From: Thermodesulfobacteriales bacterium
GTDB taxonomy: Bacteria; Desulfobacterota; Thermodesulfobacteria; Thermodesulfobacteriales; Thermodesulfatatoraceae
Assembly (NCBI GenBank): GCA_026988575.1
Contig: JALSKZ010000065.1
Span: 1 to 39,252, forward strand
Reading direction: 5' to 3'
Length of the DNA stretch: 39,252 bases
Numbering within the stretch: the stretch's first letter is position 1; every line of letters begins with the position of its first letter. Under the pieces are notes generated by a model, which was given only the letters and a program-made list of their open reading frames with translations, was not told the DNA's origin and did not search any database. Shown here in pieces: positions 1,275 to 16,917 of the stretch. The position numbers and the translations under genes are program-made.

Positions 1275-2969
1275 TTAGAGGCCAAATTCTTTTTCAAACG
1301 GCCACGCCGCAAGGCCTCCTTCCATATATGCTACCTTTGGAAAACCTAAGGAGGCCAAAATACGTGCGGCCTCAAATCCCCGCAAAGAGATCTTACAAAA
1401 ACTGATGATCTCCTTCTGGCGGGGCAGTTTTTCCAGAGCCAAGGCACGCAATTTCCCCAAGGGGATGTAGACCACATTGGGATAGGGTATTTTTACGGCC
1501 TCTACTTCCTTAGGGGTACGGACATCCAAAAGGATTACCTCTTCGCCGCGATCTATCTTGGCCTTGACCTCATAGGGCTTGTAACTCTTTACCAAACGGT
1601 AAATTTTATTTTGGGTAGCCCAAGCAGCCGTGGTCAGCAGATCAATGGCTGGCGCAAACGGTGGGGCATAGGCCATCTCTACTGCCGCTAAGTCTTCAAT
1701 GGTACCGTAAGAACGAAGTACAGCAGCCACTGTATTGACCCGAGGCAGGACATCGCCTGGACCTATCATTTGCGCCCCTAAGACCCGGCCAGAGGCCGCA
1801 TCCGCAATCAATTTAATGAGCAGGGGATTTTGCCCTGGTATGTAATGGGCGCGGTCAGCTCCTGCTACTATGGTAGAAACTACATCATAGCCCATTTCCC
1901 GGGCCCGTTTCTCCGTAAGCCCTGTTCTGGCTATATTCAAATCAAAAAGCCGACACACCGCCGTTGCCACTACTCCCTCAAACACACTTTCCATCCCCGC
2001 AAGATTATCCCCTATAACACGGCCGTGTTTATTGGCCACCGAGCCCATGGGTAAATATACAGGTTTGCCCGAGATAAGACACCGGCTCTCTACACAATCA
2101 CCACCCGCATAGATGTGAGGATCACTGGTACGGAGATGTCGGTCGACCTTTATACCCAAGGGACCAACTTCTAACCCGGCCTCCCGGGCAAGGTCTACGT
2201 TAGGACGGACCCCTATGCTTAAAAGCACCATCTGACAGGGTATCTCCCTTCCCCCTTCGGTAATTACTTTTTCTACTCTATCTCTGCCCTCAAAGGCCTT
2301 TACTCCCTCACCCAAAATTATCTCTATCCCCCTGTCCTCTAGGGCCTCTTTCAGGGGAAAGGCCACGTCTTCGTCAAGGATGGTGGGAAGAGGCCAGTGG
2401 AGTTTCTCCACCACGGTGATACGTTTGTGCGCCTTAAACAGGGCCTCGATGCACTCTAGGGCAATAAGCCCCAGGCCTACTACCACCACGTCGCGGATAT
2501 CGGGATTGGCTAAGGCCTCTTTCAAGGCCCTTCCGTCTTCCAAGGTCTTTAGGGTGTAAATACCGGCAAGATCTATGCCCTCTAAGGGGGGCCGGATAGG
2601 GCTGCTGCCCGTGGCCAACACTAATGAGTCATAAGGTAATTTTAAAATTTCACCGGTCTCTAACTGGCGAGCCACTACTATTTTTTTATCCCGGTCAATG
2701 GCCTCGGCCTTTGTCCGTGTCAGCACTTCAATATCTTTGACGGCTTTGAAAAAGTGCGGATCTCTGGGCACGCCAGCAGGGGTATTGATCAACTCCTGTA
2801 ACTCTTTAACCACCCCGCCCAGGAAAAAAGGCAAACCACAAGCTCCGTAGGAGACAAAGGGACCTTGTTCCAAAATAATTACTTCGGCCGATGGGTCTAA
2901 CCGCTTAAGTCGTGCAGCAGCCTTTGGGCCACAAGCTACTCCTCCAATCACCACAATCTTTTGCCCCAT
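1275..2969 (-). CDS. FAD-dependent CoA-disulfide/polysulfide reductase-like enzyme with C-terminal rhodanese domain
   Basis: A protein of 564 residues. Residues 1 to about 450 form a pyridine nucleotide-disulfide oxidoreductase: an FAD-binding GG-rich turn at the N-terminus, the single redox Cys44 in SYGACGLPF as in CoA-disulfide reductases and NADH oxidases, a second nucleotide fold around VVVVGLGLIALE, and the FAD motif IYAGGDC. The last ~100 residues are a rhodanese domain with active-site loop CKISLRG. Family members reduce CoA disulfides, polysulfide or oxygen with NAD(P)H. The rhodanese tail points to sulfane-sulfur chemistry. The start is the ATG at 2969, with GGAGG five bases upstream; the longer frame starts with GTG and lacks this site. 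The gene stands alone. The exact substrate is uncertain. Confidence 0.88.
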   Translation of the reverse strand: MGQKIVVIGGVACGPKAAARLKRLDPSAEVIILEQGPFVSYGACGLPFFLGGVVKELQELINTPAGVPRDPHFFKAVKDIEVLTRTKAEAIDRDKKIVVARQLETGEILKLPYDSLVLATGSSPIRPPLEGIDLAGIYTLKTLEDGRALKEALANPDIRDVVVVGLGLIALECIEALFKAHKRITVVEKLHWPLPTILDEDVAFPLKEALEDRGIEIILGEGVKAFEGRDRVEKVITEGGREIPCQMVLLSIGVRPNVDLAREAGLEVGPLGIKVDRHLRTSDPHIYAGGDCVESRCLISGKPVYLPMGSVANKHGRVIGDNLAGMESVFEGVVATAVCRLFDLNIARTGLTEKRAREMGYDVVSTIVAGADRAHYIPGQNPLLIKLIADAASGRVLGAQMIGPGDVLPRVNTVAAVLRSYGTIEDLAAVEMAYAPPFAPAIDLLTTAAWATQNKIYRLVKSYKPYEVKAKIDRGEEVILLDVRTPKEVEAVKIPYPNVVYIPLGKLRALALEKLPRQKEIISFCKISLRGFEAARILASLGFPKVAYMEGGLAAWPFEKEFGL

Positions 2970-3154
2970 TATTCCCTCCTTTCCCAGATATTCTTTAATT
3001 TTCACTTATTTTCGAATCTACATATTTTAGTCTATTTGAGACAGGGCCATTTTTATCTGCTTTTTGGGATTCTTTTGCGTATTTTTCTCTTAGAGGCGGT
3101 TTTTAGATCGAGGGCCACCAAATAATAGTTTAAAAAACAAAACCGCCACGATAC

Positions 3155-3182
3155 TTGATCTTAAATTTTATCATTATATTCT
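3155..3182 (+). promoter_or_regulatory. Probable sigma70-type promoter of def
   Basis: TTGATC at 3155-3160 and TATTCT at 3177-3182 are separated by 16 bases in an AT-rich stretch, about 38 bases before the def start. No other promoter-like pair was seen in this divergent gap (2970-3219). Confidence 0.45.
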
Positions 3183-3219
3183 TACAATTTTCTGGACCAA
3201 TATTGCCGGGAGAGGATCT

Positions 3220-3726
3220 ATGGGTGAAAAGACAATACGTATATTGGGGGACCCTGTTTTAAGGGAAGTGGCCAAGCCTATCACCGAAATTAATGGCCAA
3301 TTACAAAGTCTGATAGAGGACATGGCCGAAACCATGTATAAAGCCAAAGGGCTTGGGCTAGCAGCCAACCAAATCGGCGAAACCAAACGCCTTTTTGTCC
3401 TAGACCTGGGACAAAGAGAAAACAAGCCCCAACTTTTGGTATTCATTAATCCGGAGATTATAGAAGCCGAAGGGGATCTATACGAAGAAGAGGGTTGTCT
3501 CAGTATCCCCGGCTATTCCACCAAAATACACCGCAAGGCCAAGATATTGGTACGCGCCCTAGACCGCGAGGGCAAGGAGTTTGAACGTGAACTGGAAGGT
3601 CTTGGGGCCAGGGCCATCCAACACGAAATTGATCACCTAAACGGCATCCTTTATATAGATTACCTTTCTACCTTAAAAAAGGCCCTTTTTAAGAAGTGGT
3701 GGAAGAAACATGGCCCTCGCAAATAA
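3220..3726 (+). CDS. def: Peptide deformylase
   Basis: A 168-residue cytoplasmic metalloenzyme that removes the formyl group from the N-terminal methionine of new proteins. All three family motifs are intact: GLGLAANQ at 44-51, EEGCLS with the metal ligand C93, and HEIDH with ligands H135 and H139 and catalytic E136. The basic C-terminal tail (KKALFKKWWKKHGPRK) is longer than the minimal fold. An AGAGG precedes the ATG. Unlike many genomes it is not followed by fmt; the next gene is unrecognised and lies beyond a 383-base gap. Confidence 0.97.
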   Translation: MGEKTIRILGDPVLREVAKPITEINGQLQSLIEDMAETMYKAKGLGLAANQIGETKRLFVLDLGQRENKPQLLVFINPEIIEAEGDLYEEEGCLSIPGYSTKIHRKAKILVRALDREGKEFERELEGLGARAIQHEIDHLNGILYIDYLSTLKKALFKKWWKKHGPRK

Positions 3727-3731
3727 AAAAG

Positions 3732-3790
3732 CACCAGCGGGTGTCCTGTGCGGGAGGGGCGGGCTCTGCCTAATGGAACACCCGCTGGTG
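3732..3790 (+). other. 13-bp perfect inverted repeat with G-rich loop downstream of def
   Basis: CACCAGCGGGTGT at 3732-3744 pairs exactly with ACACCCGCTGGTG at 3778-3790. The 33-base loop contains GGGAGGGGCGGG. It starts five bases after the def stop, so it may mark the 3' end of the def mRNA. No T run follows on the plus strand, so it is not a standard intrinsic terminator. With the GGG in the left arm, four G runs are present (3739-3763), so a G-quadruplex on the plus strand is possible. Confidence 0.6.
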
Positions 3791-3840
3791 TAAGACCAGA
3801 CACCATCCCCCACCTATAATTTCAAAAAACAGCGCCAAAC

Positions 3841-3875
3841 AAAAAAAGCCCTTGGAGTTTTTACTCCAAGGGCTT
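3841..3875 (-). terminator. Strong intrinsic terminator, minus strand
   Basis: A perfect 13-bp stem (3846-3858 with 3863-3875) has a 4-base loop and is followed on the minus strand by seven T (complement of A at 3841-3847). On the plus strand no T run follows, so it acts on minus-strand transcripts. No convincing minus-strand protein gene lies upstream before 4110, which suggests an RNA gene or the remnant of a lost gene. Confidence 0.8.
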
Positions 3876-3896
3876 CCTGGCCCGAAGGCGCTTAAG

Positions 3897-3925
3897 AGCA
3901 TAAAAATTAAAATTTAGTTTGTCAA
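3897..3925 (-). promoter_or_regulatory. Minus-strand promoter-like sequence close to the terminator
   Basis: On the minus strand, TTGACA (3925-3920), a 17-base spacer and TATGCT (3902-3897) give a near-consensus sigma70-type pair. Transcription would begin near 3890 and reach the terminator after about 50 bases. This is an alternative to the longer candidate RNA, or a second start within it. Confidence 0.45.
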
Positions 3926-4098
3926 TACCTCTATTGGTACAGTAGTTTTGACATAAAGGCTTGACCTTTGCCAAATCTGCATCAAATCGTAACTTGTTAA
4001 GCCCCAAATTCCAAACACGGGAAAAAGGCCCTAGGCAAAGGATTTCGCTAATAAGATAAAGCCTACTACGTTGCCGAAAGGCGTTTAATCTGCTAACC

Positions 4099-4127
4099 CT
4101 TATGGCGTTATGAAGGTAATTTTTCAA
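4099..4127 (-). promoter_or_regulatory. Possible promoter of the candidate minus-strand RNA
   Basis: On the minus strand, TTGAAA (4127-4122) is followed after 17 bases by CATAAG (4104-4099). It overlaps the start codon region of the plus-strand gene at 4110, so if used it could interfere with that gene's expression. The -10 matches only four of six positions. Confidence 0.28.
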
Positions 4128-4949
4128 GGGCCTAGATGGAGTCTCTTTATCGAAACGGCCTTGAGCAAAGACCTAAAGGCCATTACCAGCTTTTTTATAG
4201 ACCAGGGCCTCTCTGCCAATGACGCCCAAAAACTTTGTGGCCTGGTCTTGGAACTGAGTGTAGACAGCGAGACACCATTGATTAAACTCTTTGAAGGACA
4301 GCCTACTCTGCTCAATATAGACAAACTGGCTCGAAAGCGATATCTATTTTCGGGCTCTATCCAAGCCTTTAGGTCTTTTTACCTGGAGTACAAAGAACAA
4401 AAGGTAGCCAAGGCCTTACTACATTTTTTGTGTCACCAATATCCGTCTTTTTTTAAAGACCTCTGGCCCAAACACGGCCTAATTCCTCCTTTGGGGATTT
4501 CCTTCCAGGTTATAGGCCCCGAAGAGATAAAGGGGCTTGATCTGGCCCTGCGCCTACGCCACCATTATGTAGTGACCAACTTCGTCCTGCCCGAACATGA
4601 GGCCTTGAAGTTATTTTTGAAACATCGGCTTGAGCCTGTTTTTATATCCCCTTGCTACCAGGAAGAATTACCTATAATCCAGCCCGTAAACGAGCAAAAG
4701 CCAGAGATTGAAGACGTAATACAACATTACGTGGACTTTCTAAAGGCCCTCCCTTCTGAATGGGCCCAAGGACTAATACCTCGGGCCTTAGCAGTTAAGG
4801 GATTTTTGTTCGCCCCTTTATTGTCTTATATGGATATCTTCACCAAGAATTTAAGTATCGAAAAACACCCTTTGCGACAGACTATTAAGGAATTATTTAT
4901 TCTTTTCCGCCAGGCCTTTCCCGAGCCTTTTGGGCTGTTGCCAGAATAA
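4110..4949 (+). CDS. Hypothetical protein, family not recognised
   Basis: An open frame of 279 codons between the candidate RNA and aconitase. I do not recognise a domain. It has no signal peptide or clear membrane segment, is rich in Leu, Phe and Lys, and looks mostly helical and cytoplasmic. The ATG at 4110 has no evident ribosome binding site. It overlaps a four-codon mini-frame (4102-4113, ATG GCG TTA TGA), so translation may be coupled or the true start may lie further in. It ends 16 bases before the aconitase start, and the aconitase Shine-Dalgarno lies just after its stop, suggesting co-transcription. Plain gene-like codon use, and the absence of an opposing gene, support it being real. 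Confidence 0.65.
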   Translation: MKVIFQGPRWSLFIETALSKDLKAITSFFIDQGLSANDAQKLCGLVLELSVDSETPLIKLFEGQPTLLNIDKLARKRYLFSGSIQAFRSFYLEYKEQKVAKALLHFLCHQYPSFFKDLWPKHGLIPPLGISFQVIGPEEIKGLDLALRLRHHYVVTNFVLPEHEALKLFLKHRLEPVFISPCYQEELPIIQPVNEQKPEIEDVIQHYVDFLKALPSEWAQGLIPRALAVKGFLFAPLLSYMDIFTKNLSIEKHPLRQTIKELFILFRQAFPEPFGLLPE

Positions 4950-16745: not shown

Positions 16746-16823
16746 TGGCGGGGCCGACGAGATTTGAACTCGCGACCTCCGGCGTGACAGGCCGGCGTTC
16801 TAACCGGGCTGAACTACGGCCCC
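16746..16823 (-). tRNA. tRNA-Asp (GTC)
   Basis: The minus strand folds into a full cloverleaf. The acceptor GGGGCCG pairs with CGGCCCC, the discriminator is G and CCA is encoded (16748-16746). The anticodon loop CTGTCAC gives GTC. The T arm contains GTTCAAATC. Confidence 0.97.
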
Positions 16824-16842: not shown

Positions 16843-16917
16843 TGGTGGGCGGAACAGGATTTGAACCTGTGACCCCCGGCTTGTAAGGCCGATGCTCTCC
16901 CGCTGAGCTATCCGCCC
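16843..16917 (-). tRNA. tRNA-Val (TAC)
   Basis: On the minus strand the acceptor GGGCGGA pairs with TCCGCCC, the discriminator is A and CCA is encoded (16845-16843). The anticodon loop CTTACAA gives TAC. It lies 19 bases upstream of tRNA-Asp in the transcript. Confidence 0.97.

Follow-up and report, generated by a model that had tools for sequence, protein, structure and literature searches.

Stand-alone, trans-acting small RNAs with C-rich loops, such as those of the RsaE type, are transcribed from sigma-70-type promoters, end at intrinsic terminators and expose a C-rich loop that can pair with purine-rich ribosome-binding sites. Terminator/antiterminator riboswitches and attenuators, for their part, alternate between two exclusive folds that make use of one terminator strand. 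Analysis of a 39,252-nucleotide stretch of DNA (contig JALSKZ010000065.1, hereafter the window) from a relative of Thermodesulfatator makes a strong case for a conserved minus-strand small-RNA gene convergent with def, the peptide deformylase gene. As predicted here, the RNA resembles the RsaE-type sRNAs in its own sigma-70-type promoter, its intrinsic-terminator end and its exposed C-rich loop; it differs from them in having no sequence or Rfam match and in carrying an unusual internal terminator-like hairpin, as well as an invariant G-rich motif that complements the C-rich loop. With the riboswitches it would share two exclusive folds built upon one terminator strand but, unlike them, it has no same-strand gene directly downstream and runs convergently into def. 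We are confident that a real RNA gene lies on the minus strand at the 3' end of def, and explain the locus as a whole, at a probability of roughly 0.6, as a small RNA gene that is peculiar to this lineage, transcribed independently and convergent with def.

In the window, def occupies positions 3220-3726 of the plus strand (Pfam PF01327, E = 1.2e-53). When 41 genomes were searched at the DNA level, positions 3781-3890, 3' of def, were found to be conserved beside def within the same family. R1, a covariance model built from the 3' portion of the element, detected one copy in eight of ten family genomes, with E values of 1e-18 to 1e-25 and always at the 3' end of def; the other two, in which def was likewise not found, have a completeness of 81% and 83%. 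Thirty other genomes of the same class that hold def yielded no convincing R1 match, and the def 3' flanks of 19 genomes from two other families contained no such element. All five matches in a phylum sample of 395 genomes fell within the same family, as did the five contigs returned when GTDB species were scanned with an exact pattern (Thermodesulfatator autotrophicus S606, a T. atlanticus MAG and three related MAGs), and there were zero matches in the viral contigs scanned. In other genera, the weak R1 matches L025-L027 (E = 0.02-0.08) were rejected upon inspection of the sequences, that in L025 being a 16-base coincidence, GGTGGGGGATGGTGTC (~1530-1600), in what looks by eye like the gene of a hydrogenase maturation protease, and the two others looking like chance. 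On present data, the element is thus restricted to one bacterial family.

Across the eight family genomes holding def, a promoter and a hairpin followed by a U-tract (P2) are kept without exception, and the conserved unit runs beyond P2 to position 3725, i.e. to the stop codon of def. Degenerate codon sites of def are 36-46% identical between the source genome and its relatives, placing unselected DNA near saturation; blocks of 18 and 15 consecutive nucleotides have remained unchanged in all eight genomes despite this, and must therefore be under strong selection. An earlier note on this DNA had proposed a structured small RNA on the minus strand between def and the next gene, reaching from 4127 or 4092 to 3841. 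The nature of the element and its start near 3890 are upheld, but its extent has to be redrawn to ~3890-3725, the conserved stretch from 3840 to 3725 lying 3' of that interval and having been overlooked. From the promoter, the U-tracts and the conservation, we infer a full-length RNA of ~165 nucleotides (3890-3725) and a shorter form of ~50 nucleotides with its 3' end at P2.

The predicted minus-strand promoter (3925-3897) combines the -35 element TTGACA (3920-3925) with a -10-like TATGCT (3897-3902) at a spacing of 17, and would place the start at ~3890, where the earlier note had also expected it. Promoter-like sites were unremarkable by count (3 found versus 3.8 expected in the 2.4 kb scanned); the position of TTGACA, in turn, is constant at 51-53 nucleotides upstream of P2 in 8/8 genomes, and TAxxxT-like hexamers follow it at a spacing of 16-18 in most relatives, such that the RNA probably has a promoter of its own on its own strand. 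A second promoter suggested near 4092 was absent among the sites of the scan. Nor did the nested inverted repeats reported at 3942-3972 and 4034-4069 hold up, as they are at chance level, not conserved, upstream of the promoter and outside the conserved unit: two perfect 8-mer inverted repeats occur in 3900-4127 against 1.0 expected, a count reached by 25% of shuffles, and the minus strand of that segment folds with a z-score of -1.3. The corresponding value for 3841-4092 is -3.1, P2 hairpin included.

Directly after the predicted start, a small 5' hairpin, P1 (3880-3889), reads GCC-UUCG-GGC in the source genome and UGGC..GCCA or UAGC..GCUA in relatives, a hand alignment revealing G-C/A-U and C-G/G-C exchanges. 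P2 (3846-3875), a hairpin of 11-13 base pairs, displays two-sided changes among genomes at pairs 10 and 11 in the same type of alignment. The perfect 13-bp stem with seven T residues described previously is indeed present on the minus strand (repeat 3846-3858/3863-3875, T at 3847-3841), although it is better called 11 bp plus U7 because two of the seven T were counted within the 13 bp. The tract itself (3841-3847) has T at nine of ten bases in each of the eight genomes.

P2 is separated by an A/T-rich linker of variable length and sequence (3815-3840) from the G-rich 18-mer TGGGGGATGGTGTCTGGT (3795-3812), which is invariant in 8/8 genomes and occurs once in the source genome. A second hairpin, P3, comes next, with a 5' arm, CACCAGCGGGTGT (3778-3790), beyond which a bulge and CC (3777-3775) extend the helix; an invariant C-rich loop of 15 nucleotides, GCCCGCCCCTCCCGC (3750-3764), whose sole perfect match in the source genome is the element itself; and a 3' arm, ACACCCGCTGGTG (3732-3744), preceded by GG (3746-3745). 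Part of the G-rich 18-mer is complementary to this loop. A U-tract after P3 (3725-3730) overlaps the stop codon of def (3724-3726), and the hairpin together with this tract is a putative Rho-independent terminator of the full-length RNA. Four pairs of P3 changed on both sides, a number matched in 0-1 of 500 shuffles and compared with 0-1 two-sided pairs in slid controls. The structure is thus backed by covariation, in P3 statistically and in P1 and P2 by hand alignment. The full RNA folds with z-scores of about -1.7 to -3.8, and -3.9, relative to shuffles; the 3' module on its own did not fold clearly better than shuffles.

The strand follows from three observations that all agree. TTGACA stands at a fixed distance; T-rich tails are found on the minus strand only, after P2 in 8/8 and after P3 in 7/8 genomes (the U-tract after P3 being weak in G006), with no plus-strand T-run after P3 in any of the eight; and P1, P2 and P3, read on the minus strand, contain single G-U pairs that become mismatches on the plus strand. 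The structure, the strand, the covariation of P3 and the boundaries drawn from sequence are established. Transcription from the promoter and the two 3' ends, with the lengths they entail, are predictions from the same sequences.

None of the Rfam families accounts for the element. Scanning the element and its relatives against Rfam 15 (cmscan, gathering and permissive thresholds), a search called for by the earlier note, gave nothing at or above the gathering score, the sub-threshold matches being weak and generically terminator-like. The best of these, the PyrR binding site (RF00515), scored 29.5 bits here and 33.2 bits in L063, against a gathering threshold of 54 bits; its likeness lies in stems that end in a terminator hairpin, but the match uses generic terminator features and the element neighbors def rather than standing upstream of pyr genes, on which grounds it was rejected. 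6S RNA (RF00013) and the bacterial small SRP RNA (RF00169), likewise conserved and free-standing, and similar in size or smaller, were excluded as the source genome encodes its 6S RNA on another contig (C72) and its SRP RNA at C1:351-449. The sole Rfam matches in the window are two tRNA genes on the minus strand (16749-16823 and 16846-16917).

Protein-coding explanations were also dismissed. In agreement with the earlier statement that no protein gene is convincing there, the 88-residue minus-strand ORF at 3861-4127 has no Pfam match and lies in a region most of which is not conserved. A 46-residue ORF over P3 also lacks a Pfam match, and no frame is kept across the block offsets; since the spacing between conserved blocks varies modulo 3 among genomes, the element is not coding. 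A riboswitch or cis-leader was rejected because the RNA is convergent with def in 8/8 genomes and not upstream of it on the same strand. Hfq (PF17209) was found in none of the eight family genomes, and the RNA does not, therefore, qualify as an Hfq-dependent sRNA. The main text of a pipeline study covering the phylum Thermodesulfobacteria names no deformylase-linked motif (PMC8632094). As far as Rfam and the literature consulted extend, the element is thus undescribed, which is not to claim a proven first.

As to how such an RNA might work, we tentatively favor a regulatory RNA that acts by base pairing independently of Hfq, the G-rich motif either covering its C-rich loop or leaving it free. 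RNA polymerase would start at ~3890 from the sigma-70-type promoter and transcribe P1 and the terminator-like P2, where a share of the transcripts would end (~50 nucleotides), the rest reading through to P3 at the def stop codon (~165 nucleotides). Since P2 alone should end most transcripts, the conserved 3' part would rely on read-through. Once the long form is made, base pairs could arise between the G-rich motif and the C-rich loop at the tip of P3. The 5' arm of P3 would have two possible partners: its 3' arm, giving the terminator, or the upstream CUGG together with GCCCGC of the loop. The C-rich loop (CCGCCCCUCCCGC) may then serve as a seed for the purine-rich ribosome-binding sites of target mRNAs, without Hfq, with the G-rich motif masking or releasing it. 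Between motif and loop, UGgGGGAuGG and CCUCCCgCA could form eight pairs; because seven are invariant, covariation lends them no support. Searching the genome for complements of the C-rich loop revealed no obvious target beyond chance, with six matches at up to two mismatches, the gene itself included, versus four for the control. Both the pairing with targets and the masking by the G-rich motif are conjectural. The sequence GTGGGAGGGGCGGCC, two mismatches away from the complement of the loop, occurs twice (G000:C4:2-16, L074; G000:C57:45339-45353, L078), and may represent a repeat or a target. A long-range helix between the 5' GGGCC and the 3' arm of P3 was rejected, being broken in the source genome.

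The main rival to this reading, which we regard as unlikely though the best placed of the alternatives, is a cis-acting conditional terminator in which the G-rich motif, CUGG and loop GCCCGC act as an antiterminator against P3; were the antiterminator to win, transcription would continue antisense through def and less deformylase would be made. RNAalifold, run on a seven-genome alignment, proposes exactly that alternative fold, and two copies of a sequence complementary to the 5' arm of P3 are present, one of them split over the upstream CUGG and the loop GCCCGC. In 8/8 genomes, moreover, 4-27 nucleotides separate the end of P3 from the stop codon of def, and the RNA has stayed beside def in the source genome even though the upstream operon differs there. 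Adjacency by itself could account for this linkage, however, and P3 has no same-strand gene immediately beyond it. In every genome, the terminator form of P3 is favored over the alternative by ~3-15 kcal/mol at 37 °C, so that the alternative fold would be transient or in need of help, and the U-tract following P3 is weak in G006.

Rather doubtful is a scaffold or protein-binding RNA, in which the invariance of the G-rich and C-rich segments would reflect recognition by a protein and not mRNA pairing. Both segments are invariant without covariation and the complement search gave no clear target, as this reading would have it, but there is no candidate protein: CsrA is found in 8/8 genomes, yet the RNA contains one invariant GGA only, unlike CsrB-type sponges, and a CsrB/RsmY-type CsrA sponge was rejected for that reason. 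We are just as doubtful of a new class of switching RNA with two tandem terminators, in which exclusive folds of the invariant G-rich strand and the invariant C-rich loop would set the length of the transcript and the choice between a free regulatory RNA and antisense read-through into def. Improbable is a pair of two unrelated neighboring elements, P1-P2 being a short terminated RNA and the G-rich motif with P3 the plus-strand 3' UTR or terminator of def. The variable linker and the strength of P2 as a terminator speak for such a division; the two modules nevertheless occur together in 8/8 genomes, and the tails and the G-U pair of P3 point to the minus strand for the 3' module as well. Finally, a mere pair of terminators devoid of RNA function is very improbable since, for all that both hairpins resemble intrinsic terminators, a conserved promoter faces them and loops and upstream sequence are rarely invariant over 18 and 15 nucleotides at such divergence.

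In the seven relatives, two permease genes and the gene of a substrate-binding protein, by eye parts of a transporter of the branched-chain amino-acid type, stand ahead of def, whereas in the source genome a divergent disulfide-reductase/rhodanese gene precedes it (window 1275-3726), with the RNA still present. The def-RNA pair has thus been relocated, or the operon broken, in the source genome. The flank on the promoter side of the RNA differs widely among genomes. In the window, it includes a plus-strand ORF of 279 residues (4110-4949) that has no Pfam match and shows DNA-level conservation in relatives, where it lies on unrelated contigs; it represents a conserved family of unknown function. 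In genera g7 and g8 of a sister family, a hairpin, TCGTCYCTACCCTCARACGA, is found directly 3' of def (L083, L085, L086 and L088), and a second copy (L084 and L087, ~1500) lies between two genes that by eye are dnaJ and a cytochrome-biogenesis-like gene, inside a long GGCTCTCCGAGGG...CCCTCGGAGAGCC stem. This hairpin has no Rfam match and is possibly another undescribed RNA or an operator.

The element described here is, in our view, a sound and modest discovery: an undescribed, lineage-restricted structured RNA whose general importance is limited inasmuch as it is known from one family only. Because Hfq was not found in this family of thermophiles, the mode of action of the RNA would reveal how sRNA regulation operates there and, as the RNA abuts def, it makes it possible to test whether an important protein-maturation gene is under antisense control.
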